Origin: Melioribacteraceae bacterium
Lineage (GTDB): Bacteria; Bacteroidota; Ignavibacteria; Ignavibacteriales; Melioribacteraceae
DNA length: 51,999 nt
Direction: 5' to 3'
Assembly: GCA_022181065.1 (NCBI GenBank)
Contig: BQMY01000124.1
Location: 1-51,999 of the forward strand
A program made the translations under genes and the position numbers. The notes under the pieces were generated by a model. It made no database searches and was not told where the DNA came from. It was given only the letters and a program-made list of their open reading frames with translations. Positions 1 through 22,558 of the stretch are shown one piece after another. Each line of letters begins with the position of its first letter. The stretch's first letter is position 1.

Positions 1-58
1 TGATTTTCTCATACTGAAAGATAATAAATATTAGTGTATCTTTCAAGGGGACTTCACA

Positions 59-112
59 CTAGTCGCCGCTAAAATCAAATTACCGCGATCCGGACATCTT
101 TCTGTCGGGGGC
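59..112. repeat. Partial copy of the array-associated palindromic element (right arm)
   Basis: This stretch, starting CTAGTCGCCGCT and ending GTCGGGGGC, matches the right arm of the element found inside the CRISPR repeats of array 1. It contains the inverted arms CGC...CCGCG and CCGGAC/GTCGGG. It is followed at about 113-165 by a second module (TTTCAACAATCGCCGGTGCC and onward) that also occurs near 19270, 19090 and 19535. Nothing coding is seen in positions 1-380; the region is repeat debris beyond the old end of array 1. Confidence 0.6.
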
Positions 113-431: not shown

Positions 432-470
432 TCATTGGGTTTTAGACTTTTTGGTCAGCCCCTCGAAGGC

Positions 471-718
471 CAATCCTACTTTGGCTAGGCAAGGGTGCGC
501 AAAGAACGTCTTCCCGATAAAAAGACATCGGGACTTGGCAAAATACGCCTGCGCAATCCTACAAGGGGTAGTCATTGGTTACAGGTCAACAGTCTTCAGT
601 CAAAAAGCAATGGACTGATGACTTTAGACTATCGACTCTGGACTGTCCCGGCTAGTCGCGGCTAAAATCAAATTACCGCGATCCCGCTATTTTTTCAGCG
701 GAAGCGTGTTATTCTGAC
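471..718 (-). repeat. Terminal CRISPR repeat of array 1, split by a 215-bp palindromic element
   Basis: Positions 471-490 read CAATCCTACTTTGGCTAGGC, a mutated version of repeat positions 5-24. Positions 491-705 are a long form of the palindromic element. Positions 706-718 (GTGTTATTCTGAC) are the intact last 13 nt of a repeat. The long form shares its left and right arms with the 135-bp copies but has an extra middle of about 80 bp (GGTCAACAGTCTTCAGTC and similar). The split point equals that of the other inserted repeats. This is the oldest, leader-distal end of the array. Confidence 0.7.
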
Positions 719-865
719 TCAGGAGGAACGTGATCACGCGCTGGATAAGTGTGAAAAAGGGTCTCAATCCTACAATAGCTAGGCGTGTTATTCTGACCCA
801 GTTGTAGCTATAGGCTACGTTGAGATCATACTCTAGCTGGGGTCTCAATCCTACAATAGCTAGGC

Positions 866-1000
866 AAAGGTGCGCATGGTACGTCTTCCCGATAAAAAGA
901 CATCGGGACTTGGCAAAATACGCCTGCGCAATCCTACAATTATCAGCTAGTCGCGGCTATAATCAAATCACCGCGATCCCGACATCTTTAAGTCGGGGGC
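866..1000. repeat. 135-bp palindromic element inside CRISPR repeat, copy 1
   Basis: It lies between GTCTC...GCTAGGC (842-865) and ATGTAATTCTGAC (1001-1013) of one repeat. It contains hairpins CCCGAT/ATCGGG, TCGCGG/CCGCGA and CCCGAC/GTCGGG. In the middle is CAATCCTACAAT, then TATC, then AGCTAG, which is the CRISPR repeat core with a 4-nt interruption. GGC occurs at both boundaries, so the exact edge is ambiguous by 3 nt. No ORF of note and no transposase is present. Confidence 0.9.
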
Positions 1001-1156
1001 ATGTAATTCTGACCGAAACCAATATAAACGGTCAGGACATCAATTTGCAGGATTAGTCTCAATCCTACAATAGCTAGGCATGTAATTCTGACAAAACTAA
1101 CTGAAAAATATGCAAAAATAAAGAAAGATTATGTCTCAATCCTACAATAGCTAGGC

Positions 1157-1291
1157 AAAGGTGCGCATGGTACGTCTTCCCGATAAAAAGACATCGGGAC
1201 TTGGCAAAATACGCCTGCGCAATCCTACAATTGTCAGCTAGTCGCGGCTAAAATAAAATTACCGCGATCCCGACATCTTTCCGTCGGGGGC
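1157..1291. repeat. 135-bp palindromic element inside CRISPR repeat, copy 2 (diverged)
   Basis: Same length and same insertion point as copy 1, splitting the repeat that starts at 1133 and resumes with ATGTAATTCTGAC at 1292-1304. It differs from copies 1, 3 and 4 in the right arm (AAAATAAAATTACCGCG instead of TATAATCAAATCACCGCG, and TTTCCGTCGG instead of TTTAAGTCGG). It is therefore a separate lineage of the element. Confidence 0.9.
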
Positions 1292-1369
1292 ATGTAATTC
1301 TGACGCAGAAACCAGCAACACCAAAACAACACCGATTCCAAGCAGGTCTCAATCCTACAATAGCTAGGC

Positions 1370-1504
1370 AAAGGTGCGCATGGTACGTCTTCCCGATAAA
1401 AAGACATCGGGACTTGGCAAAATACGCCTGCGCAATCCTACAATTATCAGCTAGTCGCGGCTATAATCAAATCACCGCGATCCCGACATCTTTAAGTCGG
1501 GGGC
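1370..1504. repeat. 135-bp palindromic element inside CRISPR repeat, copy 3
   Basis: Near-identical to copy 1 with the same boundaries, splitting the repeat that starts at 1346. The repeat resumes as GTGTTATTCTGAC (1505-1517), the other repeat variant. So the same element sits in both sequence types of repeat. Confidence 0.9.
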
Positions 1505-1737
1505 GTGTTATTCTGACTACTAACGCAATAAATATGTCGCAAGTTAACAGATTGAAATCGTCTCAATCCTACAATAGCTAGGCATGTAATTCTGACGTCC
1601 AGTATAAGAGCCCCAGGACAAAAACTTCATTGAGTGAGTCTCAATCCTACAATAGCTAGGCATGTAATTCTGACGTGAGGAATGGTGGTATTACTGGTAC
1701 TACTGCGATGGAAGTCTCAATCCTACAATAGCTAGGC

Positions 1738-1872
1738 AAAGGTGCGCATGGTACGTCTTCCCGATAAAAAGACATCGGGACTTGGCAAAATACGCCTGCG
1801 CAATCCTACAATTATCAGCTAGTCGCGGCTATAATCAAATCACCGCGATCCCGACATCTTTAAGTCGGGGGC
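1738..1872. repeat. 135-bp palindromic element inside CRISPR repeat, copy 4
   Basis: Near-identical to copies 1 and 3, splitting the repeat starting at 1714, which resumes as GTGTTATTCTGAC at 1873-1885. The spacers on either side differ from those around the other copies. No insert is seen in any repeat between 1930 and the leader. Confidence 0.9.
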
Positions 1873-4009
1873 GTGTTATTCTGACAGACGACGAAGAAGA
1901 AGAAGAGAGAATTGCAGAGCTTTCGGATTGTCTCAATCCTACAATAGCTAGGCGTGTTATTCTGACCGTCAAGCGAATGAGAAAGACAGCCCCATGTAAA
2001 CAATAAAGTCTCAATCCTACAATAGCTAGGCGTGTTATTCTGACAGCCGCAGAATGAAGAAGAGATTTACTCTTGCTTCCAGGAGGGTCTCAATCCTACA
2101 ATAGCTAGGCGTGTTATTCTGACATGACATTATCGGGGATATTGACGATTTGTTAGGTTCTCCAGTCTCAATCCTACAATAGCTAGGCGTGTTATTCTGA
2201 CTGAGTTTAATCAACTTCTTGACGGTATGGATAATGACATAATGTCTCAATCCTACAATAGCTAGGCGTGTTATTCTGACCGCTATTAAACAACGCTACG
2301 ATGTAGCAGGAGTAAATGGCGTCTCAATCCTACAATAGCTAGGCGTGTTATTCTGACGCTCTAGATATGCTGCGGCAGCTGGGGGTAAGATACTACCAAG
2401 AGGTCTCAATCCTACAATAGCTAGGCGTGTTATTCTGACAAAAATATACAGAAATAAAGAAAAATTATTTTGTTAACTAAGTCTCAATCCTACAATAGCT
2501 AGGCATGTAATTCTGACTCATCGAAAACAAATAGAGGACATCTCCACAATCCTCAATTCGTCTCAATCCTACAATAGCTAGGCATGTAATTCTGACTCTG
2601 TCAATAAGCCACCACGTCATGAACCGCCAAATTACTGGGTCTCAATCCTACAATAGCTAGGCATGTAATTCTGACGTTAAACACGTAAAATAGGAACCAC
2701 AACGTGCCTGGTCCGCAGTCTCAATCCTACAATAGCTAGGCATGTAATTCTGACATAGACGCATACGACCTCTCACGAAAGGAGTATGAGGAGGGTCTCA
2801 ATCCTACAATAGCTAGGCATGTAATTCTGACATTCATCATGGCTTTCGTGGCTATGATCACCGCACCATTGGGGTCTCAATCCTACAATAGCTAGGCATG
2901 TAATTCTGACTGAATAAATTTTAGTCCATCACTAAAAGGGAGTGCTTTTTTGTCTCAATCCTACAATAGCTAGGCATGTAATTCTGACATTCCCCAAGTA
3001 ACCCGAAAACACAGGTAGCAAACTGTGTTGGTCTCAATCCTACAATAGCTAGGCATGTAATTCTGACCTATCTGCGTGTTAGCAGATACACCGATAAAGG
3101 CCTTCCGTGGTCTCAATCCTACAATAGCTAGGCATGTAATTCTGACTCAATTATGACTACGAAGGCATTGAAAAATGGTTGGCTGGTGTCTCAATCCTAC
3201 AATAGCTAGGCATGTAATTCTGACGGATTTAAAAGGTACGGGGAAGTATCCCCTGTACGACATTCCGTCTCAATCCTACAATAGCTAGGCATGTAATTCT
3301 GACTTATTTATAAATTAATCAGGAGTCAGTCATGTTTACATTGAGTCTCAATCCTACAATAGCTAGGCATGTAATTCTGACACAGCGGAAGATGAGGAGT
3401 TGCCGTTCTAATCACATGCCTAGCGTCTCAATCCTACAATAGCTAGGCATGTAATTCTGACACACACTCCGACCTCGTACGGGTTAAGTGTAGCGGAAGA
3501 TGGGTCTCAATCCTACAATAGCTAGGCATGTAATTCTGACGCTCGCAGTATAGCAATGCTTCAACAGTTGCTATCCAAAACTGTCTCAATCCTACAATAG
3601 CTAGGCATGTAATTCTGACTGAGGTTGATTACGATTTTAAGGTTAATCAGGGTCTTGAACTTGGTCTCAATCCTACAATAGCTAGGCATGTAATTCTGAC
3701 GAAAGAAAGGAGGAAAGAGAGAGAAGGAAGAGAGAAGAGTCTCAATCCTACAATAGCTAGGCATGTAATTCTGACCAAACCTTCCCTCGGTGTCCTTTTC
3801 ACCGTCTGCAAACGGGTCTCAATCCTACAATAGCTAGGCATGTAATTCTGACATATCGGCTTGGGAATCACACGAAGAGACCTGGAGGTCTGTCTCAATC
3901 CTACAATAGCTAGGCATGTAATTCTGACTGGAACGAACTAACCGCAACAGGCGCACCATCTCTAATTCGTAGGTCTCAATCCTACAATAGCTAGGCATGT
4001 AATTCTGAC

Positions 4010-4224
4010 TGTCGGGCTCTGAGACCCGCGTCATTGCTGGGCGAAAAGGGGCTAATTTCCTAATGCTTCTTTCATACCCCATATCTTTTATGCCCTAAAA
4101 TAATTTATTTTCACTTAAGTTGTTGTAATTAAACAACTTAACTCATTTCCTAAAGGGTGTGAATATTTGTGGCTTTTTAGCATTTTCCTGTCTATTATTA
4201 TAGACACTTTCAGCATGTCAAAGA
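4010..4224 (-). promoter_or_regulatory. CRISPR leader 1 with putative pre-crRNA promoter
   Basis: This 215-bp segment directly abuts the youngest repeat and is almost identical to 22344-22558. I count four differences: three at GCT/ACC near 4037 and one at CCTAAAG/CCAAAAG near 4150. On the minus strand it has TTGACA (4216-4221) and an AT-rich -10 candidate 16-17 nt away (AATAAT/ATAATA, 4193-4199), a sigma70-like promoter about 180 nt before the first repeat. Internal palindromes are TTAAGTTGTT/AACAACTTAA (4115-4141), GTCTAT/ATAGAC (4190-4205) and CGGG/CCCG next to the repeat. The stop codon of the upstream gene (4231) lies just outside, so homology between the two leaders defines the functional unit. 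Confidence 0.85.
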
Positions 4225-4230
4225 ACAAAT

Positions 4231-4602
4231 TTAATAATAAGGGCGGAATTTTACAAATCGGAATACTATTTCTTTTTTATTATCGCCCATGTCGCGGGAA
4301 ATTCTTTCTGATGTTGCCGAATATACTTTAATATGTTTTACTTTAAGCATCTCAACCAAATTAAAAACGAAAGTATATTCCCCACTCAATAATACGGAGA
4401 GTGATACTCCCGGATTATTTTTCTTAATTTCCAAGATAATAAATAAATATTTTTTAGCAAGTTCTTTTATTTCTTCCAATGAATTTTGCGGGTTTATCGC
4501 CGGAAAGGCTAAATTGATAATTTCACCAAAACACTTGTTTGCTTCTTCAAGTTGTGTTTCAGTCCAGGTATCAGTCGTGTGGTTTGTCAGATTTATCAGC
4601 AT
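4231..4602 (-). CDS. Small CRISPR-associated protein, possible ring nuclease (Csx15/Csx20-like)
   Basis: A protein of 123 aa starting MLINLTNHTTDTWTETQ. It has a strand-like N-terminus with an LTNH motif, a central helix region (EEIKELAKKYLFIILEIKK), a hydrophobic GEYTFVFNLVEML segment, and a C-terminal Y-SATSER motif followed by FRFVKF. The layout (short, alpha/beta, N-terminal NLTNH, late TSER) resembles small type III accessory proteins proposed as ring nucleases that degrade cyclic oligoadenylate. I make that link from memory of the family and cannot confirm it. It starts one nucleotide after the cas2 stop and is the last gene before leader 1, so it is cotranscribed with the adaptation genes. 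A role in switching off the CARF-HEPN response is inference. Confidence 0.55.
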   Translation of the reverse strand: MLINLTNHTTDTWTETQLEEANKCFGEIINLAFPAINPQNSLEEIKELAKKYLFIILEIKKNNPGVSLSVLLSGEYTFVFNLVEMLKVKHIKVYSATSERISRDMGDNKKEIVFRFVKFRPYY

Positions 4603-4603
4603 A

Positions 4604-4876
4604 TCAGATTATAAATAAATCGCCGTAGGCGGTGTATTTTTCCTTCCCGAAAGTTTTAATTTTTTTTCTGCAGCCCTCGCAAAGATCATAAATTATCACT
4701 GAATCTTTTGCCTCATCAATTATAGATTTAGTTATTTTATTTAGTTTTGTCAATTCATCTTTATTAATATCGCATTCAAACACGGAGTATTGCACTCTCC
4801 ATCCAAAATCTTTCAATTTTTTGGCTAATCTGGTTCTGTTTTTATTTTCTGTGATATCGTAAGCGTAAACTATCAT
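4604..4876 (-). CDS. cas2: CRISPR-associated endoribonuclease/integrase subunit Cas2
   Basis: A protein of 90 aa from the ATG at 4876, which has GAGG six bases upstream; an upstream in-frame TTG at 4888 is less likely. The N-terminus MIVYAYDITENKNR is the first ferredoxin-like strand with the conserved Asp (D7). It continues with KKLKDFGWRVQYSVFECD, the classic Cas2 second strand, and the length is normal for the family. With Cas1 it forms the spacer integration complex at the leader-repeat junction. The cas1 stop (TGA) lies just upstream of its RBS, so the genes are tightly coupled. It is probably serving both arrays, since array 2 has no cas1-cas2 of its own in this window. Confidence 0.95.
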   Translation of the reverse strand: MIVYAYDITENKNRTRLAKKLKDFGWRVQYSVFECDINKDELTKLNKITKSIIDEAKDSVIIYDLCEGCRKKIKTFGKEKYTAYGDLFII

Positions 4877-4884
4877 AATTATCC

Positions 4885-5850
4885 TCAAAACGTTGGAAGC
4901 TGTTTGGCTCTTACGTCCCTTATCAGTTTTTCGAATGTTGAAGTAACACTATTTATAATGCCTTTGGTTTTATCATCACCGTTTATGAAAGGATTCCAGG
5001 TTTCAAAAAATTTGCGGTAACCCAGTTCATTTAGTAAAAATCCCTTTTCTTCATCATACTCAAAACAATCAGCTGTTATACTTTTCTGATTAGTCATTTT
5101 TACAACAAGTTTATCTATTGATGCTCTATAGAACTCCAGAATATCAAGACAGAGTGATGCCCTGTTGTACGAGGGTTGATGCAGAAAACCCATGTAGGGA
5201 TCAAAGCCTGTACTCAATGATACTGAAAATAACAAGTTATAAAAAATAGAATAACTGAATCCGAGTAGTGAATTAACTTCGTTTTCAGGTGGACGCCTGC
5301 TTCTCTTTACAAACTGGAGCGCTCCTTTGAATAATTTTGCGTATTCCCTGAAGTATGCCGCTGACATGCTCCCTTCTATCCCAAGTAGTTCTGGAATTGA
5401 CGCCGCATTATTGGCGTGTTGTACTCCGGTTTTAATTGTCCGTCTGAAACCTTCCGAATCAACTTCAGCATTGTTTTTACCGTAGACGGGTATGAACCTG
5501 AGGTATTCCTCCCCTTTTTTTATTACTATATTTTTTGCGTAAGCAAGATTAATCGCTTTGTTGGTAATAATTTCGTATTGCGAAAATTTCACATCGAGGT
5601 TGTTTTTATATACCGGGTGGAAATGCCCCTTTATTCTACCTTGAAGTGTAAAATATGTGAGAGCAATCCCGCTATCCGAAACCAGGGTAAGCGCTTGAGT
5701 AGTTAGTTGGATATTTCCAAACAGCAATATACCTTTAAGTACTCGCGCCGGAATTTCGTTTATCTTTTTTTCCTCGCGATTGAAGAATACAAAGCGGTTA
5801 CTATCCCGCCGGATTTTTATACCTTGCTGATTTACAATTAATAAACACAT
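4885..5850 (-). CDS. cas1: CRISPR-associated integrase Cas1
   Basis: A protein of 321 aa from the ATG at 5850, which overlaps the upstream stop codon (TGATG). A longer reading to 5925 is open but would overlap the upstream gene by 76 bp. Catalytic metal ligands are visible: E159 in LLGIEGSMSAAYF, H224 in MGFLHQPSYNR and D236 in SLCLDILEFYR. The RRPPENEVNSLLGFSYS block is also typical. It catalyses insertion of new spacers at the leader end. It is the third-last gene of a four-gene leftward operon that ends at leader 1. No reverse transcriptase domain or fused module is present. Confidence 0.97.
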   Translation of the reverse strand: MCLLIVNQQGIKIRRDSNRFVFFNREEKKINEIPARVLKGILLFGNIQLTTQALTLVSDSGIALTYFTLQGRIKGHFHPVYKNNLDVKFSQYEIITNKAINLAYAKNIVIKKGEEYLRFIPVYGKNNAEVDSEGFRRTIKTGVQHANNAASIPELLGIEGSMSAAYFREYAKLFKGALQFVKRSRRPPENEVNSLLGFSYSIFYNLLFSVSLSTGFDPYMGFLHQPSYNRASLCLDILEFYRASIDKLVVKMTNQKSITADCFEYDEEKGFLLNELGYRKFFETWNPFINGDDKTKGIINSVTSTFEKLIRDVRAKQLPTF

Positions 5851-6314
5851 CAGTTTAACCTGTTGTTTTTTAAGTCCTGGATAAATAGTTGGATCATATT
5901 TTTCTGCTCTTCCAGTATGGAACAAAAAGTTGTTATGTACATCATTGTAATGACGGCATATTTATAATAAGGTTCTCCGTCAAAGCCCGGTGACCACTCA
6001 AAAATGAAATTTTGTTCATCGGTATAAACCGTAGCGTTTTGTGGCAAGAGACCATTGTATTCGGCTGCGAGCTGCTGATATTCCGGCAGATCTTCAAAGC
6101 CAATGTTTTCCAATAGTTTTGCCCCAAATTTAAGATGTGGCACGCCGCACATCTCTATTACGCTTATTTCAAATTGCTTTTCATCACGCTCATACATGTA
6201 GATTGATCCGTCTTCCTTTTTGAACGGATTAAGGTGATTGTATTTGCTGTAACATCTCACAGATTGCCAGATGGCTTTCTTCAGATGCGATATTTTCACT
6301 TTTTCATTTTCCAT
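5850..6314 (-). CDS. Unknown protein at the head of the adaptation operon
   Basis: I do not recognise this protein of about 154 aa. I place the start at the ATG at 6314 (MENEKVKISHLKKAIWQ); an in-frame TTG at 6344 lies between the two conserved boxes of the promoter-like motif (6320-6351), so it should not be transcribed. With the ATG the message would be almost leaderless. The protein is soluble, acidic and aromatic-rich (PYYKYAVITMMYITTFCSIL). No signal peptide, zinc site or nuclease motif is evident. Its stop overlaps the cas1 start (TGATG), so translation is coupled and a role with Cas1-Cas2 in adaptation is likely. That is inference from position only. Confidence 0.8.
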   Translation of the reverse strand: MENEKVKISHLKKAIWQSVRCYSKYNHLNPFKKEDGSIYMYERDEKQFEISVIEMCGVPHLKFGAKLLENIGFEDLPEYQQLAAEYNGLLPQNATVYTDEQNFIFEWSPGFDGEPYYKYAVITMMYITTFCSILEEQKNMIQLFIQDLKNNRLN

Positions 6315-6603: not shown

Positions 6604-9147
6604 ATGAATTCTACAACAAAAAAACAAGCTCTCGTAATTGGAACAGTCATTTATAATTTTGCCGGATTGATGCATCGGTTCATTTCCCCGGAGCATTCCA
6701 AAAGCGATTTTATTCTTGAGTTTTACAGAAATAATTTTGAATCAAGGCGGATATTTCAGGATATAAATAATTACCTGCAAGAATTTTTATCGGGAACATC
6801 AACCGATAATTTCCCCATCAGAATTGCGGAAGAAATAAATTCCGAAATCAACAGATTCTCGGGCGGCTCATCCAAAGTAAATCATCTCATACCAGTACTT
6901 TCGCGGGTTAATTTCAAGGAAGAGTTGCGATCAGATGGTGAATACTATTACATGCCGCGAAAATTAAGTAAAAGTGATGTATTCCCGAATAGTAGAAATG
7001 GTTTAGTATCTCAATCTGAATCAGAACAAAAATACCGCGATTTGTTCAATGAATTTGTCAGCGAATTAAACCTGATCCCCGATTTTGAATTAACATCTTT
7101 TACAGACTCTCTTCTCTATCTGTTCGAAAAATATGCTGTTTATCTGCCTGTATCTACGGAAATTGAATCCCCCGATGTATCTCTTTATGATCATTGCAAA
7201 ACGGTTGCCGCAATTGCCATTGCGAAGGAGTTTGCCGAAGTAAATAATGATAAGGATTTTTTAATTATCGCGGCTGATATCAGTGGTATCCAGAAATTTA
7301 TTTATAACGATATTGCTGCCAAACCAGGAAGTGAGCAGAAAAGTAAAAGATTACGGGGTAAATCTTTCTACCTCAGCATTTTAACAGATTTATTCACCTC
7401 GTACATCCTGGATGGACTCGAATTACCTCGCACAAATCTGCTTATGAGTGGTGGTGGCCATTTTATTATAATGGCTCCGAACAGTGAAGAAAACAAGAAA
7501 ATAGTGTCTGACTGCAGCCGTGAAATTCAAAAATGGTTCTACAAAACATTTAAGGGAGACTTGAACCTTATAATTCAGACCATTGAAGCAGATGATGAAC
7601 TTTATAAAAACTTTCCGCTATGGTACAATGAAATATCGGGTAAGCTCCAATCAGCAAAAAAACAGCGGAGTTTTGAGAACTTATCGGAAGTTTTCGGCTA
7701 TGATCTTGACGTAATGGATATTTCAGAATACAAATTTTTATTGAATAAAAGCAAAGAATACAAGTCAGATTACGAAGATAGTTCAACTACTTATGAAAAA
7801 AATCTCGCGCTTCTGTCAATCATGTTTGAGGAAATGGGTAAAAAACTAACGAAACTAAAATATTACTGCGTTTTAACCCACAAGGAAGGAAAAAATGTAT
7901 CCACTGATAAACTCAATGTTGATTTTATTCTTCCGTTCCCCAAGTTTTCCAAAAGTATTGTATTTGCAGCTTCGGAAGATGAGGTCAGTAATCTGTTAAG
8001 AAACTGCGACGAGAGTAGTTTTACGAGTGTTACTGTGCTACGCTCAAACAACAGCGACTTCATGGATAATGTATTTGCAAAAAATTCATCAATAATGAAG
8101 ATCCCATTTACTTTTGGCTTTAACTATATGGGGAATAGTGTACCTGTTGATGAACATTCTCAAGTACTGGAATTCGAGAAGCTCGCCGAACTCAATAACG
8201 AAGATGGTAAAACCAATAGCACTCTTGAATATAAACTCCTCGGGACATTGAGAATGGATGTTGATAATCTCGGGGCAATATTTAGTCAGGGACTTGAACG
8301 AAATAAAAGTGAAGAAAGTATAAGAACCTTAACCAGAACCGTAGCACTCTCGCGGGAGTTTAATCTCTTTTTCGGAGGTTATTTGAATGATATTGCAGCC
8401 AGGTGGCGGGTTTATATAACTTATTCGGGTGGAGATGATCTTTTCGTGGTCGGCTCCTGGATTAATATAATTGGTTTTGCCCTCGATGTAAAAGATAAAT
8501 TCACAGAGTTTGCCTGCCATAATTCCGAAGTTACAATTTCGGGCGGTGTGTCGATTAATAAACCATCATTCCCGATAGGCAGGGCAGCCCAAAATGCCGG
8601 CGAAGCTGAAGAATTGGCTAAATCTTTCCCGCAAAAGAAACGACTAAAAACTATTAAAGTAAGAAAGCAAACGGAACATGAAAAAAAAGTAGACGAAAAA
8701 AATCCAGAAGAAACGAAGGAAGATACAAAACCTATTGAAATAACCAAAAACGCAATTGCTGTGTTCGACCAGGCTTTTTCATGGACAGAAATGAAATTAC
8801 AATGGGAATACGGAAAAGCACTCGATGCATTAGTTGACAGAAAAGATCGCAAGATCCCGGTTGATGAGGAAATTAAACCTTCATTTTTGCATTTTTTACT
8901 CCAGCAAACAAAAAAAATGGTTAATGAAGAAGGAGAATTTAACGTTTATCAAATGGGCTTACTTGCCAAAATAAAATATATGATTGCAAGAAGAGGCGCA
9001 ACTTCGGAAAAAATCAATAAAAATGATTCAAACAGACGAATATTAGAACTATCGAAGCTTATCAATAATAATAGTTCAGATAAATATTTGGAAAATTTTG
9101 TAATACCTGCCTCTTATGTAGTATTGAAGAATAGAGAAAATAAATAA
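6604..9147 (+). CDS. cas10: Type III-A effector subunit Cas10 (Csm1), HD motif lost, GGDD intact
   Basis: A protein of 847 aa with AGGAA upstream of the ATG. The first palm domain carries DISGIQKFIYND (about residue 225), diagnostic for Csm1. The second carries YSGGDDLFVVG with GGDD at 609-612, the active site that makes cyclic oligoadenylates when target RNA is bound. At the N-terminus, where active Cas10 has an HD pair in a GALLHDIGK-like helix, this protein has GTVIYNFAGLMHR: Y17 and N18 take the place of His-Asp. DNA cleavage by the HD domain is therefore unlikely. A charged, Lys/Glu-rich insertion (about 680-720) follows the second palm. It heads the nine-gene effector operon 6604-18187. 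Confidence 0.95.
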   Translation: MNSTTKKQALVIGTVIYNFAGLMHRFISPEHSKSDFILEFYRNNFESRRIFQDINNYLQEFLSGTSTDNFPIRIAEEINSEINRFSGGSSKVNHLIPVLSRVNFKEELRSDGEYYYMPRKLSKSDVFPNSRNGLVSQSESEQKYRDLFNEFVSELNLIPDFELTSFTDSLLYLFEKYAVYLPVSTEIESPDVSLYDHCKTVAAIAIAKEFAEVNNDKDFLIIAADISGIQKFIYNDIAAKPGSEQKSKRLRGKSFYLSILTDLFTSYILDGLELPRTNLLMSGGGHFIIMAPNSEENKKIVSDCSREIQKWFYKTFKGDLNLIIQTIEADDELYKNFPLWYNEISGKLQSAKKQRSFENLSEVFGYDLDVMDISEYKFLLNKSKEYKSDYEDSSTTYEKNLALLSIMFEEMGKKLTKLKYYCVLTHKEGKNVSTDKLNVDFILPFPKFSKSIVFAASEDEVSNLLRNCDESSFTSVTVLRSNNSDFMDNVFAKNSSIMKIPFTFGFNYMGNSVPVDEHSQVLEFEKLAELNNEDGKTNSTLEYKLLGTLRMDVDNLGAIFSQGLERNKSEESIRTLTRTVALSREFNLFFGGYLNDIAARWRVYITYSGGDDLFVVGSWINIIGFALDVKDKFTEFACHNSEVTISGGVSINKPSFPIGRAAQNAGEAEELAKSFPQKKRLKTIKVRKQTEHEKKVDEKNPEETKEDTKPIEITKNAIAVFDQAFSWTEMKLQWEYGKALDALVDRKDRKIPVDEEIKPSFLHFLLQQTKKMVNEEGEFNVYQMGLLAKIKYMIARRGATSEKINKNDSNRRILELSKLINNNSSDKYLENFVIPASYVVLKNRENK

Positions 9148-9168
9148 TTATTCACAGGAGAATAAATT

Positions 9169-9573
9169 ATGGGTTTGAAGGATTTAAATTCCCAAAATGA
9201 TATGGCTAAACTAACACCCGAGGAAATTGATTCAATCAGTGAAAATTTCGGGAGGAGTTTGGCTGACAGGCGAGATGGCATTAAAACCAATCAGGTAAGA
9301 AATATTTTCGCTACGGTTCAATCATTACGAACAAAACTTAAAACAATGAAAAAATGGAATGATGAACTTCATCAGGAATTGGTGCTGATTAAACCTAAAC
9401 TCGCATACGCAGCCGGAAGACAGAGAAATGTGAAACCGCTTTACGAACTCTTGTCAAAAGGTATTCAAATAACTGTCAACTCTTCAGAGCAGACAAAAGC
9501 TCTTGAAAACTTTATACAATTGGTTGAATCAATTGTGGCATATCATAAATTTCATGGCGGAAGAGATAATTAG
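9169..9573 (+). CDS. csm2: Type III-A effector small subunit Csm2
   Basis: A protein of 134 aa with GGAG eight bases before the ATG. Family features are TNQVRNIFATVQSLR, then LVLIKPKLAYAAGR, then the C-terminal LVESIVAYHKFHGG. Csm2 is the helical small subunit that lines the crRNA-target duplex in the Csm complex. It lies 21 bp after cas10 and 14 bp before csm3, as in most csm operons. The N-terminus (about 20 residues, LNSQNDMAKLTPEE) is poorly conserved in the family. Confidence 0.95.
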   Translation: MGLKDLNSQNDMAKLTPEEIDSISENFGRSLADRRDGIKTNQVRNIFATVQSLRTKLKTMKKWNDELHQELVLIKPKLAYAAGRQRNVKPLYELLSKGIQITVNSSEQTKALENFIQLVESIVAYHKFHGGRDN

Positions 9574-9587
9574 GAGAAAATAAAGTT

Positions 9588-10364
9588 ATGGGAAACAGTT
9601 TTTTAGGTAACGTAGTTATTAAAGGTAAAATTGAAGCCGTCACTGGTATTCATGTTGGGGGCAGTAAAGATAAACTTCAAATTGGTGGCGTTGACAGCCC
9701 CGTCTTACGAGATCCTCACTCAAATCTTCCCTACCTGCCCGGTTCTTCCATCAAAGGAAAAATGAGAATGCTCCTTGAATTTGCTCTTGGAAAAATTCAC
9801 CCCAAAGGTGAGCCATACTCATCTACAGATATTAAAGATGCAATTCCTCGTATATTCGGCAGCTCGGAGAAAGATATTGAAATTGGACCTACCAGATTAG
9901 TCGTGAGAGATGCCTATCCCGATGACGCTACAAAAGCATTTTGGGAAGGAATCAACGATTCTGAGTTGTTATATACAGAGTATAAACCCGAAAATAGCAT
10001 TAACAGATTGACTTCCGAAGCTAATCCGCGTTTTCTTGAAAGAATTGTAAAAGGCTCTAAATTTGATTTTGAGATGATTTACAGCATTTACGAGATGGAA
10101 GCCGATCCTGAAAACAATATCGACCTCAACAATTTCAAGCATGTTTTCGAAGCAGTGCGTTTACTGGAGCATTCCGGACTGGGCGGTAATATTTCAAGAG
10201 GCTACGGGCAGGTTAAGTTTTTGTTAGCCGATCCGGTGTTTGTCAGCAAAGATGATTATCAGTCTGGCAAAGGTGAATATGAAAAAATCTCCGGTGAGGT
10301 TACGGAAAAGAAACTCAAAACTATTGGCGATATTAAACTACCTGAAATTTTCGAAAAGAGTTGA
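9588..10364 (+). CDS. csm3: Type III-A backbone RNase Csm3
   Basis: A protein of 258 aa of the RAMP family. The N-terminal GIHVGGSKDKLQIGGVDSPV contains D36, corresponding to the catalytic Asp that cuts bound target RNA at 6-nt intervals in Csm complexes. PYLPGSSIKGKMR is the conserved RAMP signature, and SGLGGNISRGYGQV is the glycine-rich loop near the C-terminus. Target RNA slicing therefore looks intact, which matters because the Cas10 HD site is lost. A good RBS (GGAG) precedes the start. Confidence 0.96.
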   Translation: MGNSFLGNVVIKGKIEAVTGIHVGGSKDKLQIGGVDSPVLRDPHSNLPYLPGSSIKGKMRMLLEFALGKIHPKGEPYSSTDIKDAIPRIFGSSEKDIEIGPTRLVVRDAYPDDATKAFWEGINDSELLYTEYKPENSINRLTSEANPRFLERIVKGSKFDFEMIYSIYEMEADPENNIDLNNFKHVFEAVRLLEHSGLGGNISRGYGQVKFLLADPVFVSKDDYQSGKGEYEKISGEVTEKKLKTIGDIKLPEIFEKS

Positions 10365-10366
10365 TT

Positions 10367-11374
10367 ATGAAGATTGTATATCTTAAACAAAAGTCCTCTT
10401 TTAAGAACAATCTTCGTTCTGATACTCTCTGGGGACTAATATGCTGGGGTATTAAAACTATTTATTCCGAAGAAAATCTTGAAAGTTTCCTGGGAGGATA
10501 TTCCGAGGGAAGGGTTGTAAAACTATCGTCAGCATTTCCGTATAAAAACAGTATTGATAAAGATAAAATCCGTTTTTATCCCAAGCCAATTTCAAAACCT
10601 CTCAACTTCAATGAGTATTTTGAAAGCAGAGGACTCAAAAAGAAAGAAGAGAAAGCGAAATCAATCGCTTTTATGAAAAAGTTCAAAAAAACCAGATATC
10701 TGGATGAAAATACTTTCAAGCTATTTCTTGCCGGCGAACTGAATGAAGAAGCACTTTTCGAAATTTTTTCGGGTGGAAAAACAATCGAGAGCCTGCCTGA
10801 AATTGAAACAAGTGATGTGCTTCATAATACAATCAACAGGTTAACAAATACAACAACAACCGGCGCGGGAAGTCTCTTTACAACTACCGAAATGTTTATC
10901 AAAGATGGCGGCTTGTATTTTTTGCTAGATGGTCCCGATGCTGAGGTTTCACTAGTGGAGGGGGCATTAAGGTTCCTCGAACACTTTGGGTTTGGTGGTG
11001 ATTCTTCTATCGGTAAGGGACACTTTGACGTTGAGATCAAAGAGTTTAACACCTTTGACTCATTGAACAAATCTGATACTTTTGTGAGCTTGTCTCTCTA
11101 CAACCCATCAAATATTGAATTGGAGTTTTTCAAAGAGAACCCGGAAAATACCTGGTATGAACTGGAAACCAGAAAGGGTAAATACGGCGGACATTTTGAG
11201 AAACCAACAAAGTTCTGGAAGAAAAGTCTGCTGATGTTCAAGGAGGGGTCCGTCTTTCCTCAGCACAATGACTCTCCGGGACAGCTTGTAAGTGTAAAAG
11301 ACAAAGAATCGGATGTAAATCACCCTATTTATCAATTTGGTTATGCTTTTAATCTGCCAATAAAATTGAAATAA
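10367..11374 (+). CDS. csm4: Type III-A crRNA 5'-handle binding subunit Csm4
   Basis: A protein of 335 aa starting MKIVYLKQKSSFKN at the ATG two bases after the csm3 stop; a TTG at 10361 is an unlikely alternative. RSDTLWGLICWGIK is the Csm4 N-terminal signature, and FGFGGDSSIGKGHF is its C-terminal glycine-rich loop. Csm4 caps the backbone and contacts Cas10 and the 8-nt crRNA handle. The length is normal for the family. Confidence 0.93.
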   Translation: MKIVYLKQKSSFKNNLRSDTLWGLICWGIKTIYSEENLESFLGGYSEGRVVKLSSAFPYKNSIDKDKIRFYPKPISKPLNFNEYFESRGLKKKEEKAKSIAFMKKFKKTRYLDENTFKLFLAGELNEEALFEIFSGGKTIESLPEIETSDVLHNTINRLTNTTTTGAGSLFTTTEMFIKDGGLYFLLDGPDAEVSLVEGALRFLEHFGFGGDSSIGKGHFDVEIKEFNTFDSLNKSDTFVSLSLYNPSNIELEFFKENPENTWYELETRKGKYGGHFEKPTKFWKKSLLMFKEGSVFPQHNDSPGQLVSVKDKESDVNHPIYQFGYAFNLPIKLK

Positions 11375-11378
11375 GATT

Positions 11379-12758
11379 ATGAAATTAAAAATACATACAA
11401 TCAGTCCGGTACATATTGGTTCCGGTAATGCTCTCCAACCTTTCGAGTATATCATAGAAGACGGAATTTACTACAGGCTTAACCAGAATAAGGCTTTTGA
11501 GTTGGCGTATGCGCGATATCCCGATTTCGCTGATAGATTGAGTACATGGATAGAAAAAACTACCAGGAATCTCGAATCAACCAGAGATAATCACAGGCGG
11601 GCTCAAATTAGAGAAAGATTTAACTTTAAGTATTTTTGCGAATCGGTGTTGCAGGATAGCGAACTTGCTGATGAAATCACTAATTCAGCTTACCTTTATA
11701 AGTGTGAAGTGCCTTATGATCTGGAAGGTAAAAAAGAGATTCATGAACAGCTAAAAACCGCAGATGGCAGTATATACATTCCAGGTAGTTCTATAAAGGG
11801 TGCAATCAGGACTGTACTTGCTTGGCGAGCATTCTCACATTTAACTGAAAAAGAACAAGTAGAGATATTAGATAATGTTATCGGCTCTCACGACTTTAAA
11901 AACGGGAGAGGAAAATTTATTGATAAAGAACTCAATGAAAAACTATTCGTATGTGGTGTGTTAAAGAGAATTAAAGGCAATAATATTAAAGATTTCAGCG
12001 ATATAAAATTTGATATCATGAAATTTATTCGGATTAGCGATGCCAAGTTGATTGACGGTGCATTGGAAGTATGTCCAAGCAACTTGTATCTGACAGATAA
12101 ATCACCCCAACCGCAAGCTCCTGCTCTGGAATGCATAAGATTTAACTCCAGCTTTGAATTTGATATCTCCATAAATGAAGATGAGATTAGAAAAATTTAC
12201 GAGGTATCTTTGAGTACTAAAGACAAATGGATTGAGTTTGATAGAAAGTTTAAGAATCTATTTGACTTCTATCCACACGAAGCGAAACCCGGCGAGTTGG
12301 AAGTTAAGATTGTCCAATCAATAAAATTAGCTATTGCAGATGCTAATGATATTTTGTTGAAATCAGAAGAAAAGTGGTTAAACAATATAAAAGATCAAGT
12401 AATTGAACAGGGTACAAAACACTCCAATGCTAATTTCGATGAAATTCGCGGTTTTTATGAATCATACGACCAAATACCGCAGATGTTCAAAATTGGCTGG
12501 GGTTCAGGTTTTGTAGCAACCACAATGTTCAGCATGTTGATGAGAAATGAAGCGACCCAGAAAAGATTGGAAAAAATCTTCGATAAGTTCAAAATTGGTG
12601 TTCCTCCCCAGAAAAAAAGAGATCCCAATGTTAAGCCGGTTGCTTTGAGTAAATTTCCCAAATCACGTAGACTTATCGCCGAAGAGCTAAATGAACCAAT
12701 TGACCCGATGGGCTGGGTAGCATTACTGGATTTTGATCAAAATCTTGAGTTGGAATAA
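11379..12758 (+). CDS. csm5: Type III-A subunit Csm5
   Basis: A protein of 459 aa. The N-terminus MKLKIHTISPVHIGSG is the typical Csm5 RAMP start (SPVHIGSG), and IPGSSIKGAIRT at 134-145 is the RAMP signature. A second conserved block MFKIGWGSGFVATT sits late in the protein. Csm5 caps the 3' side of the complex and helps crRNA maturation. Its stop overlaps the next start (TAATG), coupling the canonical csm genes directly to the kinase-like gene. Confidence 0.93.
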   Translation: MKLKIHTISPVHIGSGNALQPFEYIIEDGIYYRLNQNKAFELAYARYPDFADRLSTWIEKTTRNLESTRDNHRRAQIRERFNFKYFCESVLQDSELADEITNSAYLYKCEVPYDLEGKKEIHEQLKTADGSIYIPGSSIKGAIRTVLAWRAFSHLTEKEQVEILDNVIGSHDFKNGRGKFIDKELNEKLFVCGVLKRIKGNNIKDFSDIKFDIMKFIRISDAKLIDGALEVCPSNLYLTDKSPQPQAPALECIRFNSSFEFDISINEDEIRKIYEVSLSTKDKWIEFDRKFKNLFDFYPHEAKPGELEVKIVQSIKLAIADANDILLKSEEKWLNNIKDQVIEQGTKHSNANFDEIRGFYESYDQIPQMFKIGWGSGFVATTMFSMLMRNEATQKRLEKIFDKFKIGVPPQKKRDPNVKPVALSKFPKSRRLIAEELNEPIDPMGWVALLDFDQNLELE

Positions 12759-15049
12759 TGTTACCGCTGGCACATGAAATTAGAGAAAGAGATTTATTTT
12801 TAAGAAGTAAATGGGAAGATAAGTATCCACTAGTCTTCCCTTTTTTTGTGCTATTGGTCGGACTTAAAATAAAGCAGAATTTACATTGGCAACCATCTAC
12901 TCTTAACAAATCCAATGAAAAAGTATTTAATGATTTCATTTTTTTGCTTTCCGATTACAAAAATTACAGCGACGAAAAAATTGAGGCGATTTTAGAGGAT
13001 TTTTTCAGAATATTTTTGCCACAATTTAACATAGACCTATTTATTGATGAATCGACCGCAATTGAGAGATCGTCAGAAAAAGAAACCGGGGAAAGAGAAC
13101 TTAATGAGCTGATAGTAGAACCAGTTATTAAAGATTGTTTGGAAGAACTGAACAATATAAGTCTGGGAAGTTACCAAAGTTTAGAAGATGAATTTCAAGT
13201 TTACTTACAAGACATTTTCAGGGAGAGTGAAAGCAAGGTACCCGGAATTACCGATAAAGAAAACTCAATTTTTTTACTGTTAGTGAATACCTTCGATAAT
13301 GAAAACATTCTGTTTCAGAATATTACACAACTCTTTAGCCTAAATGATATAATTTTTACTGTCAAACGTCATAACATTTCTTTTTCTAAGGAAATCAGAA
13401 ATACTCCCCTGCTGATCATTTTACTTTTTTATTTTGATATTGAGATTCAAGCACCAAAATCTGCTCTAAAGGACTATCATATAATTTCTGATTTAAGAGG
13501 GAATGATGACATACACAATAAGATAGCTCATATATTCGGTAATCAGAACTTTTCTGATATGAAGCAATTGTCGCTTATTCTCGATTATAACGAGAAAACA
13601 AAAAATGAATTAAATTATATATTTGACAATAGTAATAATAATATCTCTCCGTCCCATCTATTCGCGATAATGGAAAATGAATCTTTTGTTATTACCTTTT
13701 CTCATAATCATAATAAAAGAATTCAACTATTTGGATATTTTGATAATCAACACTTCAGGGAAAATATCGACGAACATTGGCTTGGAACAATCAATCTTGA
13801 TGAAATCGATTACAAATTAATTAATTTTGATCGGCTATACAACATAAAGATTAGAAAAAGGTTGAGCGATCTATTTGAAATTATCTATCCAGAAAGTAAA
13901 ATCATTTATGCATCAAGAAGAGGAATTAAGAAGGATAAAATAGAAGCAAAAAAAATTGTAAAAGTTACTGATATAATTAAACACGAGGTTAAAACACTAC
14001 CTACACTTGAGCTGAATTCATCAAACCAAATCTCATCAGAACTGATAAACTACGAGTGTGTATTATTCACTATAAGAAATAGACAAGTTTATTTCAGCCG
14101 ATTTACTCCAGATGACAATTGCAATGAGATATTGTTGGAAAAGGATATCAACATACTAAAATATGCATCCGAAAAAGAAAAACAGAATTTCTTCATAAAT
14201 GAGGTAATGAACAAACATTTTGCAAATGAAGTTAATGAAAAAATTTATTCTACTTATTCAACACTTGAAATTCTTCGTATTATCTACGATATGGAGATTT
14301 CATATACCGAGGATCAAATTTCATCCGAGATTTTAAATGAAATTGATTTCAAAAAGGTTCTTAATGATTTAAGGCATCAGACAACCACAAAATTAGGGGC
14401 TGCTATACGTTTTTTAACAATCTTCAATAAGTTCATTGAGAATCAAAATCTCTCAGATCATTATCTTCGTAAAGAAGCGGAAGAAGGAGACTCTAAACGA
14501 AAAACACTTTCTGAGTTAATAAGTGATGCCAAAAGCAATGTTCGTACAGTCCGAAAATTTTTAAAAGGGACAAAAGGACTTTCTGCGACAAAAGATAACG
14601 CAAATTTCATGAAAATAAACACCAAAGAGAGTTTAGAAAAAACAACTTATTACAGAAATGATGATAAGTTTAAGATTGAGATTACTGGAGATGAGAATTG
14701 TTATATCAATGTGGACGTAGAATATTTTGAGGACATATTTATTCAACTATTAGATAACGCTAATAAGCACGCTTTTGATAAAACTGATATTGAGAAAAAT
14801 ATAGTTTCTATCGATGTAAGCAAGAATAATAACTCAGTAATAATTGATTACCACAATAACGGCAGAAAATTCTCAATCAATAAGGATCAATTTATAAAGT
14901 ACGGTAATTCCAATAAACCTAAAGAGGGGGTTGGTGCTGGTGGAGCACTCATTAATACTTATGCCAAAGTATTAGACTGCAAATTTGAATTAAAACCAAG
15001 TGATGGACTTAATTTTATATTCTATTTCAAATCATTAGGAGATAATTAG
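12758..15049 (+). CDS. Histidine kinase-like ATPase embedded in the csm operon
   Basis: A protein of 763 aa with no predicted membrane segment or signal peptide. The C-terminal third looks like a GHKL histidine kinase: an H-box candidate at H540 in NDLRHQTTTKLGAAI, an N-box LLDNANKHAF with N667, a G1-like DYHNNG, and a G2-like loop GVGAGGALI at 724-732. The first 500 residues are a large soluble region I do not recognise; no CARF, PAS, GAF or HAMP motif is evident. It overlaps the csm5 stop by one base and is followed directly by a receiver-domain gene (stop TAG then ATG). This arrangement implies a cytoplasmic two-component pair expressed with the Csm complex. What the sensor detects is unknown. 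The H-box is divergent from the usual HExRTP pattern, so autophosphorylation is not certain. Confidence 0.8.
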   Translation: MLPLAHEIRERDLFLRSKWEDKYPLVFPFFVLLVGLKIKQNLHWQPSTLNKSNEKVFNDFIFLLSDYKNYSDEKIEAILEDFFRIFLPQFNIDLFIDESTAIERSSEKETGERELNELIVEPVIKDCLEELNNISLGSYQSLEDEFQVYLQDIFRESESKVPGITDKENSIFLLLVNTFDNENILFQNITQLFSLNDIIFTVKRHNISFSKEIRNTPLLIILLFYFDIEIQAPKSALKDYHIISDLRGNDDIHNKIAHIFGNQNFSDMKQLSLILDYNEKTKNELNYIFDNSNNNISPSHLFAIMENESFVITFSHNHNKRIQLFGYFDNQHFRENIDEHWLGTINLDEIDYKLINFDRLYNIKIRKRLSDLFEIIYPESKIIYASRRGIKKDKIEAKKIVKVTDIIKHEVKTLPTLELNSSNQISSELINYECVLFTIRNRQVYFSRFTPDDNCNEILLEKDINILKYASEKEKQNFFINEVMNKHFANEVNEKIYSTYSTLEILRIIYDMEISYTEDQISSEILNEIDFKKVLNDLRHQTTTKLGAAIRFLTIFNKFIENQNLSDHYLRKEAEEGDSKRKTLSELISDAKSNVRTVRKFLKGTKGLSATKDNANFMKINTKESLEKTTYYRNDDKFKIEITGDENCYINVDVEYFEDIFIQLLDNANKHAFDKTDIEKNIVSIDVSKNNNSVIIDYHNNGRKFSINKDQFIKYGNSNKPKEGVGAGGALINTYAKVLDCKFELKPSDGLNFIFYFKSLGDN

Positions 15050-15973
15050 ATGGATGAACCTGAAGAAATGAAAATTCTTGTTTTAATTGTTGATGATAAT
15101 GAAGATGACTATGAATTCATCAGTGATATATTTTTAGACTTCAATATTTATTCATTTTATGCCGATTCAACTGAAAAAATGCTCGAAAAGCTCTCTGGAT
15201 TACATCATAAACTTTCCGCAATTATATTAGATATTAAAGGCAAAAAAAAGACTGATCAAGAATTACCAAACATTGATTTTATAAGGAATGCAACAGGTTT
15301 CCTTGAACGAAATCCAAAGTATATTAAAATTCCATCTTATATCGCCTCGGGCTCACCGAACGAGCGAGCCAAAACCAGAGAGATATTTAGCGATAAACAT
15401 GTTTTTACAAAAGATCCAGAGGAAATCTCAGAGTTAGCTCGTAAAATAGTTGAAGATGCAAAAAATCAAGACCGAGTTCTTATAAGAAATGAATACAAGC
15501 ATATTTTCGATATTATACGCACAACTGATTTAGATGATGGAAAAGATAAAATAATTCAAGACATTATACTCAATATTGATACAACTGAAAAAGATAAAAT
15601 CAAATCCTATTTAAATGAAATTAGGAAGATTGGTGAATCTATTTATAAGCGTTCTGCAAAAGTATTAGAATTTCATTGTGAAAAAACCTTTTCAGCCATA
15701 CATAAAATAAACTCCGGAAATCGTTATCGGAATGGTAATCCAAGAGTTCAAACAGATTATTTTTATAAAGATAGGGCTGTTGAACATGCATTCTTTAATA
15801 TTCACTGGATTGGAAGTTATCATGGTGCACATGATCCTGATACTTTGGGAGAAGATGATATTGATCCCGTAAATTTCCCAACAAATTATACGCTTAAAAC
15901 ACTTGTTTACTCTTTATTTGATATACTTTTATGGTATGAGAGAATTTATCAAAAGGGAAATACAGATGCATAA
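15050..15973 (+). CDS. Receiver-domain protein with unknown output domain
   Basis: A protein of 307 aa. Residues about 7-135 form a receiver domain: acidic pocket D15-D16 in LIVDDNEDD, phospho-acceptor D61 in AIILDIKG, a switch Ser in YIASGS, and the conserved Lys in HVFTKDPEE. The loop after D61 is unusually long and charged (GKKKTDQELPN). Residues about 140-307 are mostly helical, with FFNIHWIGSYHGAHD near 250; I recognise no DNA-binding, enzymatic or HEPN family, though an H-rich helical output could be catalytic. It starts immediately after the kinase-like gene and its 3' end overlaps the CARF-HEPN gene by 8 bp. It is the probable partner of the kinase. Confidence 0.82.
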   Translation: MDEPEEMKILVLIVDDNEDDYEFISDIFLDFNIYSFYADSTEKMLEKLSGLHHKLSAIILDIKGKKKTDQELPNIDFIRNATGFLERNPKYIKIPSYIASGSPNERAKTREIFSDKHVFTKDPEEISELARKIVEDAKNQDRVLIRNEYKHIFDIIRTTDLDDGKDKIIQDIILNIDTTEKDKIKSYLNEIRKIGESIYKRSAKVLEFHCEKTFSAIHKINSGNRYRNGNPRVQTDYFYKDRAVEHAFFNIHWIGSYHGAHDPDTLGEDDIDPVNFPTNYTLKTLVYSLFDILLWYERIYQKGNTDA

Positions 15974-17240
15974 ACTAATTATCTTTTTAGGGACAGGGCA
16001 AGGAGAGCTTAATCCTAAACATAAAGGCAGTTACAAAGTAGCTGATTATTATTTTGAACATGCAATAGATAAAGTTTACACCACTCCCTATGTGGGTGAA
16101 GCTATAATCAAAGCAAAGCCAAACGAGTTTGATGAAGTCTATATAATCGGGACAAAAGACTCAATGTGGGAAACACTCTATTTTTCGGCGATTGAAGAAA
16201 ATCCCACAGATGAAGAAACCGATAACATCTATGAAATGATTGATGCAAAAAATGCAGGCGGTCTATCGGAAGCACATTTCAATATTATCGAGGGTAAATT
16301 GACCGTTTTATACGGTCTTAAAGTAAAAACTTGTCAAACCCCTGTTGGATTAAATTCAGAAGAACATTGGGAAATCTTCCGTTTATTGACAGAAATTCCT
16401 TCCGATGGTGATAATATATCCCTGGATATAACTCATAGTTTGCGTTTTCAGCCATTCATCTCTCAATTAGCAATTTCATATCTTCAGACGTTAAAAGGCG
16501 TTAATATTAAGAATGTATTTTACGGAGCGCTAGAGTTACGTAATACTTATTTCGAAGGTAAAACCCCCATAATGAATCTGAATTCGCTTGTTTCAATGCT
16601 TGATTGGACAAACGCTGCGTTCGCACTTTCCAGATATGGAGATACTTCGGTATTTAACGAGCTATTGGATAATGAATTGCAAAAAGAATTCCTTAAAAGG
16701 TCGAAATACTTCTATACCGTTCTTCAACTTAATATGGTCGCCTCAATTAAGAGTAATGCAGAGAGATTTCTAAAGTCGACTGAAAAAATTGATGTCGAAA
16801 AACTTAATTCAAAAGCATTTGCACTCATAAAAGATACAATAACAGATCTTCCGAAAACTATTTTGTCAAAAGAAAAGGAATGGCATGTATTATTTGAACT
16901 TGCTGAGCGCCACTGGAAAAACTCGCAATACGGGTTAGCGATATTATCTGCGTATGAATCGATAATTGAGAGATTAGCAAATATATATAAGGTTGATGCA
17001 AGAAATAATATTGACATATATAAAGAACTAGGAAAAATTGCCAAAAAGAAAAGAGGATTCGGTGATATTGCTGTTAAAATGGCAAAATTTAGAAACGCTG
17101 TTGCACACGCTGAAACTGAAAAAGCCACTGAGCCAAATCATGTTCTCGAAAATTTCGAACATTTTTTTAATGAACTCAAATCAAGAATAGATTCCACTGA
17201 GTTGGAAAATCTTCCAAAATATTACAAGGTAACGCAATGA
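15966..17240 (+). CDS. CARF-HEPN ribonuclease of the TM1812/Csx2 family (Csx1-like)
   Basis: A protein of 424 aa starting MHKLIIFLGTGQ, with AAGGGA upstream; a longer in-frame start at 15903 would sit inside the receiver gene. The N-terminal CARF domain has the family motif DITHSLRFQPF (D154-H157), which helps bind cyclic oligoadenylate. The C-terminal HEPN domain has RNAVAH (R376, H381), the R-x4-H RNase motif. When Cas10 makes cyclic oligoadenylate, proteins of this kind degrade RNA non-specifically. It takes the place of csm6 in this operon. The start overlaps the receiver gene by 8 bp and the end overlaps cas6 (ATGA). Confidence 0.9.
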   Translation: MHKLIIFLGTGQGELNPKHKGSYKVADYYFEHAIDKVYTTPYVGEAIIKAKPNEFDEVYIIGTKDSMWETLYFSAIEENPTDEETDNIYEMIDAKNAGGLSEAHFNIIEGKLTVLYGLKVKTCQTPVGLNSEEHWEIFRLLTEIPSDGDNISLDITHSLRFQPFISQLAISYLQTLKGVNIKNVFYGALELRNTYFEGKTPIMNLNSLVSMLDWTNAAFALSRYGDTSVFNELLDNELQKEFLKRSKYFYTVLQLNMVASIKSNAERFLKSTEKIDVEKLNSKAFALIKDTITDLPKTILSKEKEWHVLFELAERHWKNSQYGLAILSAYESIIERLANIYKVDARNNIDIYKELGKIAKKKRGFGDIAVKMAKFRNAVAHAETEKATEPNHVLENFEHFFNELKSRIDSTELENLPKYYKVTQ

Positions 17241-19880: not shown

Positions 19881-19980
19881 GGTCACAGGTCAACAGTCTT
19901 CAGTCAAAAAGCAACGAACTAAAGACATTTGACTAACGACTCTGGACTGTCCCGGCTAGTCGGGGGCGTGTTATTCTGAC
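19778..19980 (-). repeat. Terminal CRISPR repeat of array 2, split by a 170-bp palindromic element
   Basis: Repeat positions 5-24 are at 19778-19797, the element fills 19798-19967, and the last 13 nt of the repeat (GTGTTATTCTGAC) are at 19968-19980. The element has the long-form middle but a deleted right arm (CTAGTCGGGGGC). The split point is the same as in array 1. Confidence 0.75.
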
Positions 19981-22343: not shown

Positions 22344-22558
22344 TGTCGGGCTCTGAGACCCGCGTCATTACCGGGCGAAAAGGGGCTAATTTCCTAATGC
22401 TTCTTTCATACCCCATATCTTTTATGCCCTAAAATAATTTATTTTCACTTAAGTTGTTGTAATTAAACAACTTAACTCATTTCCAAAAGGGTGTGAATAT
22501 TTGTGGCTTTTTAGCATTTTCCTGTCTATTATTATAGACACTTTCAGCATGTCAAAGA
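22344..22558 (-). promoter_or_regulatory. CRISPR leader 2 with putative pre-crRNA promoter
   Basis: Nearly identical to leader 1 over 215 bp, including TTGACA at 22550-22555 on the minus strand, its AT-rich -10 region, and the inverted repeats. The homology stops at about 22558, before the end of the TPR gene at 22616. The conserved TTTCCAAAAGGG here replaces TTTCCTAAAGGG of leader 1. Confidence 0.85.

Follow-up and report, generated by a model that had tools for sequence, protein, structure and literature searches.

A 135-bp module at one position of four CRISPR repeats, and its relatives at the array ends of a type III-A locus in a Melioribacteraceae bacterium

The type III-A locus and its two arrays

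The window analysed here (51,999 bp) is the entire contig BQMY01000124.1 of a Melioribacteraceae bacterium, the 4.9-Mb genome of which is assembled in 164 contigs. It carries a type III-A (Csm) CRISPR-Cas system whose locus is ordinary in its make-up, with the cas genes flanked by two arrays that share a single 37-nt repeat (GTCTCAATCCTACAATAGCTAGGC-ATGTAATTCTGAC) and have near-identical leaders (Table 1). Csm1 to Csm5, Cas1 and Cas2 all score above the curated NCBIfam cut-offs, which places the system in type III-A (Csm), and Cas6 scores above the Pfam cut-off and below the NCBIfam one. Two open reading frames within the csm operon (12758-15973; 763 and 307 aa) have no Pfam match and no NCBIfam match over the cut-off. 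The contig ends (1-62 and 51927-51999) are multi-copy sequences that are also found at or near the ends of other contigs. The left one, which is probably IS-like, abuts at CTAG a copy of the right part of the module described below, and a dispersed repeat (150-463) with dozens of matches in the genome adjoins the array 1 trailer.

We infer that the AT-rich sequences to the right of both arrays are leaders and that transcription runs from right to left. Since these leader-like sequences lie on the right and are almost identical to each other, we take each array to be oldest, and leader-distal, at its left end. All 65 spacers are distinct across the two arrays, and the two best similarities between spacers are partial, each extending over 29 nt. 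One pair is made up of two array 1 spacers, those that follow 1080 and 2427, the other of the array 1 spacer after 2819 and the array 2 spacer after 20991. The local scores of the two pairs (23 and 19) exceed the maximum of 16 in 20 shuffled sets, and the pairs probably reflect homologous protospacers that were taken up twice, from diverged phages. The spacer at 3382-3424, before repeat 3425, ends in ACATGCCTAGC, which by eye matches 11 nt of the repeat exactly in inverted orientation. Array 2 holds a 12-repeat block (20523-21396) with a third right-half variant, GTGTAATT, between ATGTAATT blocks.

Table 1. Positions of the CRISPR-Cas genes, the arrays, the module copies and their relatives in the window
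Feature	Position	Strand	Remarks
Module right part alone	58..112	+	abuts multi-copy sequence at contig end
Array 1 terminal repeat	467..718	+	215-nt module relative 491-705; left half 467-490 (17/24 matches); right half 706-718
CRISPR array 1	706..4009	-	36 repeat right halves, 35 spacers
Module copy A	866..1000	+	in repeat 842-1013, right half ATGTAATT
Module copy B, diverged	1157..1291	+	in repeat 1133-1304, right half ATGTAATT
Module copy A	1370..1504	+	in repeat 1346-1517, right half GTGTTATT
Module copy A	1738..1872	+	in repeat 1714-1885, right half GTGTTATT
Array 1 leader	4010..4232	-	218/223 bases identical to 22344-22566 beside array 2
cas2	4604..4888	-	profile match above curated NCBIfam cut-off
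cas1	4885..5925	-	profile match above curated NCBIfam cut-off
Type III-A module	6604..18187	+	csm1/cas10, csm2, csm3, csm4, csm5, two unnamed ORFs, TIGR02221 CARF-type gene, cas6
Module right part alone, array 2 trailer	19222..19278	+	again at 19672 in tandem duplicate
Second trailer copy, left half and left part of module	19324..19508	+	upstream unit of 450-bp tandem duplication; right limit by eye
Array 2 terminal repeat	19774..19980	+	170-nt relative 19798-19967, without most of right part; left half 19774-19797 (20/24 matches)
CRISPR array 2	19968..22343	-	31 repeat right halves, 30 spacers, 0 internal split repeats; repeat and leader as array 1

Split repeats inside array 1 and at both array ends

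Four internal repeats of array 1 (those at 842, 1133, 1346 and 1714) are interrupted after base 24 of the 37-nt repeat by a module of 135 bp. Each module has an intact GTCTCAATCCTACAATAGCTAGGC before it and [A/G]TGT[A/T]ATTCTGAC after it, and the spacers adjoining the split repeats are of normal length. The copies at 866, 1370 and 1738 (A) are identical; that at 1157 (B) differs from them in 6 of its 135 bases, none of them before module position 77, which gives no difference in the first 76 positions against six in the last 59 (one-sided P 0.006, post hoc). The likeness from copy to copy is far beyond chance (BLAST E 2.3e-65 and 3.1e-57). Split repeats stand at ranks 0, 2, 4, 5 and 8 of 36 in array 1, alternating with intact ones. 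The internal copies are confined to the first 8 of its 35 non-terminal repeats (P 0.0013, post hoc), and none of the 30 in array 2 is split. In the assembled order, the right-half variant switches at three of the four split repeats, compared with 2 of the 31 remaining neighbour pairs (P 0.006, post hoc).

Much of this had been described in an earlier note on the same DNA. The coordinates and junctions of its four 135-bp copies, all inserted after repeat base 24, were reproduced, and the copy that it called diverged is the one at 1157. The flanking spacers differ as it had stated, none of the 65 being repeated, and the right halves are distributed as it gave them, two copies being followed by ATGTAATT and two by GTGTTATT. 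Its rejection of a simple segmental duplication holds, because the copies have no spacers in common. Two features were overlooked in that first reading of the sequence, namely the split terminal repeats and a degenerate half-repeat that the module itself contains.

In both arrays, the terminal repeat at the leader-distal end is interrupted after the same base as the internal repeats, here by module relatives of other lengths, and the junctions are identical in internal and terminal repeats. The relative in array 1 has a long middle compared with the 135-bp form. The right junction of the module is already present in these terminal repeats, whose right halves, GTGTTATTCTGAC, lie at 706 (array 1) and at 19968 (array 2). 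Further parts of the module are found in the array 2 trailer (Table 1), where CAATCCTACAATAGCTAGGC, a 20-mer of the normal repeat, also occurs exactly at two sites, 19328 and 19778. Considered as trailer sequence, the module is thus present at the leader-distal end of both arrays, not in the compact 135-bp form.

A degenerate copy of the repeat's left half lies within the module: CAATCCTACAAT-AGCTAG, which can be aligned to it with one 4-nt insertion. The gapped alignment is better than all of 1000 dinucleotide shuffles for copies A and B, and than 997 and 998 of 1000 for the two terminal relatives. Without gaps, two of the six trailer sites that resemble a half-repeat score 20/24, above all 200 shuffles, and the other four score 16-17/24, which is without distinction because shuffles reach 17. 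The distance between the inner and the outer CAATCCTAC is 83 bp in all four internal copies and in the terminal repeat of array 1, and 80 bp in two array 2 trailer units, the normal pitch being 75-82 bp between 59 adjacent unsplit repeats. The 1,700 bp of trailer contain CAATCCTAC eight times, on the repeat strand in every case. On both strands elsewhere it occurs once in the 43,999 bp of the window remainder and not at all in 97,792 bp of other DNA from the same genome, the latter being a convenience sample mostly picked by matches to the neighbouring dispersed repeat. Both the gapped shuffles and the CAATCCTAC count point to degenerate repeat content in the trailer sequence.

Fold and distribution of the module

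As single-stranded DNA, the module folds far better than shuffled sequence on either strand (z about -4.0 to -4.1, with 0 of 200 shuffles as good). In the predicted fold, the left 70 nt form a single long, imperfect hairpin and the right 50 nt form two; these subterminal hairpins come within 2-3 nt of both module ends, and the right ones stop 3 nt before the junction. In RNA, the module adjoins the 5' side of the predicted CCUA/UAGG hairpin of the repeat. Because it lies 5' of this expected Cas6 hairpin, the sequences of the hairpin and of the 5' handle are intact and crRNAs may still be matured from the array, although the minimum-energy fold of the split repeat pairs part of them with the module.

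In the 4.9-Mb genome itself, BLAST returned only two chance matches outside the window contig (E 2 and 7), and two covariance models, with 150 of 1,275 and 150 of 524 first-look candidates scored, found none there up to E 1. Relatives of the module were found in this genome in the window contig only, in array 1 and in the two array trailers. The search of the genome and its relatives that the earlier note had suggested for the element has accordingly gained the relatives at the array ends, and no copy elsewhere. A 20-bp match near a Y1 gene on another contig (C82; E = 2) was set aside as chance, and lies inside a 512-aa ORF. Weak matches of the left-part covariance model to ordinary repeat units in both arrays (E 3e-4 to 0.03) were attributed to architecture and not to extra copies, since both hold two half-repeats at a similar pitch.

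Neither a 23-base pattern (one position degenerate) nor the 20-mer of the repeat was found in genome contigs of 84,980 species or in viral contigs, and distant blastn against plasmids gave none; exact patterns are strict, and these collections may omit the genome of the window or those very near it. Among 57 other genomes compared by BLAST, none of them from the genus of the window, three gave weak matches (E up to 0.01), which were rejected because what they share is just the short stem TCCCGAT...ATCGGGA, set in a different context. The right-part covariance model, with stricter filters, had seven matches in 2 of 115 other genomes; the five of these that were inspected are unrelated-looking hairpin pairs, and the matches were rejected. 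For relatives by Cas10 match (10 of 340), arrays were present in five of the ten regions, all with other repeats. In one related type III locus (L106 781-1060, genome G168), a repeat appears to be split between GTCTC and AATTCC... by a palindromic sequence of ~30 nt. This split repeat follows a spacer of >100 nt, and the palindrome has one further match, with 3 mismatches, in the same genome.

Origin and meaning of the split repeats

The explanation that we favour, and to which we give an even chance, is that the module is fossil DNA from an array end, which recombination through the repeat half (20-24 bp) brought into internal repeats. The module would be a compact leader-distal array end, not foreign DNA, made up of two hairpin blocks around a degenerate half-repeat. 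Its fusion with the terminal repeat's right half would predate the divergence of arrays 1 and 2, and the split terminal repeat would have been carried into internal repeats of array 1 via the 20-24 bp repeat half. The route may have been array-end fusion, replication template switching or repeat-to-repeat conversion, and the copies would later have been partly homogenised. With 20 exact bases common to the normal repeat and two array 2 trailer sites, one crossover can make the left junction. The identity of A and B over the left 76 positions is as expected if the left part had been exchanged, and the distal clustering together with the absence from array 2 fits local copying, age alone being an alternative. 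Against recombination, the donor has to be inferred, since none of the trailer copies now seen has the 135-bp form (one is 215 nt, the other 170 nt and without most of the right part). Two of the four copies carry ATGTAATT and not the terminal GTGTTATT, so that a single crossover with a terminal repeat of the present type is insufficient, and the flanking homology is short (24 and 13 nt). All P values are post hoc, and the likelihoods that we attach to the explanations are judgements, not calculations.

The main rival is a non-autonomous hairpin-ended element (IS200/IS605- or REP-like) whose site-specific insertion after base 24, at the foot of the hairpin that the repeat itself forms, would have hit both terminal repeats and at least four others; we consider this possible though unlikely. 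Hairpins near both ends, no clear target duplication and a fixed junction are features of IS200/IS605 and REP/RAYT elements, and the module shares all three. Its strong fold, its fixed junction and orientation, the intact spacers and the independent right-half variants are what site-specific insertion would be expected to produce, GGC stands before both junctions (a possible cleavage rule or 3-bp duplication), and two Y1 transposase genes are present in the genome. However, both Y1 genes have flanking palindromes that look unrelated by eye, and a link between the module and these transposases was rejected on that ground. Neither a cognate Y1 gene with matching ends nor dispersed copies beyond the two array ends were found in the genome, the transposase search having covered the Y1 family in an assembly of 164 contigs in which a gene could be missed. 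Such an element would also need specificity for most of the repeat half, yet it contains repeat-derived sequence itself and clusters beside the trailer while being absent from 30 array 2 repeats. Nor does it resemble a MITE of a DDE transposon, as its ends, AAAGGTGCGC and GTCGGGGGC, are by eye not inverted repeats, and the only candidate target-site duplication is the ambiguous 3-bp GGC before both junctions. Of the two options put forward in the earlier note, repeat-to-repeat conversion is therefore still in play, whereas site-specific insertion of a non-autonomous element is weakened, because relatives were found only in the two array trailers, fossil repeat sequence lies near the repeat pitch, the copies cluster by a trailer with a longer form, and the Y1 palindromes look unrelated. 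It seems doubtful to us that a hairpin-ended element targets CRISPR repeats at the hairpin foot and leaves spacers, crRNA handle and hairpin sequence intact.

The remaining explanations concern the assembly, the adaptation machinery and selection on the module. The three A copies have an identical stretch of 159-172 bp in common, which may have been misresolved to give a wrong copy number or segment order, and the contig ends in multi-copy sequences of the kind found at or near other contig ends, as in short-read assembly. The order of the two intervening segments is therefore unsafe. Swapping segments between identical copies cuts the variant switches from five to three and gives variant runs of 3/5/8/20, resembling the 2/5/12/12 of array 2. 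Each split repeat then has the variant of its own block, one of the four stands at a switch, and the number of filled sites is unchanged. Part of the crossover evidence would thereby be gone, and the swapped order fits insertion or short conversion tracts. An artefact behind the copies themselves is nevertheless decidedly unlikely given the four different left and four different right contexts, the one diverged copy and the same structure in both terminal repeats; the segment order may be wrong, but four filled sites hardly. Adaptation is known to duplicate the leader-proximal repeat, and a leader-adjacent split repeat duplicated with each new spacer would recur with different spacers, as is seen here. 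We hold this to be highly improbable, as the alternation of split and intact repeats demands repeated loss, and a repeat of 172 nt would misfit the measurement of repeat length that Cas1-Cas2 usually makes. Very unlikely, too, is a functional RNA or array boundary element (e.g. for processing or transcription) selected for and kept in several repeats. The RNA fold of the split repeat is strong (z -3.08), and pairing in the right hairpin is kept through double changes in 2 of 12 pairs across five sequences (21 of 500 shuffles as high). However, the sequences are very few, and partners slid by +1 also give 2 double-change pairs, so that the covariation is weak. There are 7 promoter-like sites, where shuffled sequence has 3.0 on average (sd 2.0); three of the 7 represent a single site, present in each A copy and on the strand of array transcription. 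Against this, there are 2 terminator-like sites for a mean of 1.5, each on the opposite strand, and the window contains no Rfam family but a tRNA.

Terminal repeats that are polymorphic or degenerate are described in the passages of PMC8047081 drawn on here, and recombination between CRISPR repeats is proposed there as the cause of array rearrangement. The leader-distal repeat is altered in those passages, as it is in this locus, but the changes described in them are substitutions, truncations, deletions and duplications, whereas here a structured module splits the terminal repeat and recurs in four internal repeats. Small non-coding DNA inside an array, like the module, is also on record in the parts of two reports used here. 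Mobile elements are rare in CRISPR arrays. One IS (ISH4) and one 132-bp MITE are mentioned for euryarchaeal CRISPR loci, an IS in a spacer under selection is mentioned besides, and such events are called very rare in Sulfolobales (PMC4390879). In Haloquadratum, the MITE HqIRS37 lies in a CRISPR spacer as a single insertion (PMC3119063). In contrast to that single spacer insertion, several copies are found here at one base of the repeat, and none away from the array ends. No passage of the literature drawn on reports several CRISPR repeats with one and the same insert at one position, which is not proof of absence. We read the proposed inward spread of a split terminal repeat as what is new here, degenerate terminal repeats and repeat recombination being known.

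The stitching of arrays normally leaves no trace, because the repeats are identical. Should the module be a mark of former array ends or of conversion tracts, the split repeats would be visible scars of the stitching and shuffling of arrays. If it is instead a repeat-targeting element, we would be dealing with a parasite that specialises in CRISPR repeats, residing inside the immune memory without destroying that memory. Either reading suggests that a CRISPR repeat can hold 135 bp 5' of its hairpin and persist.
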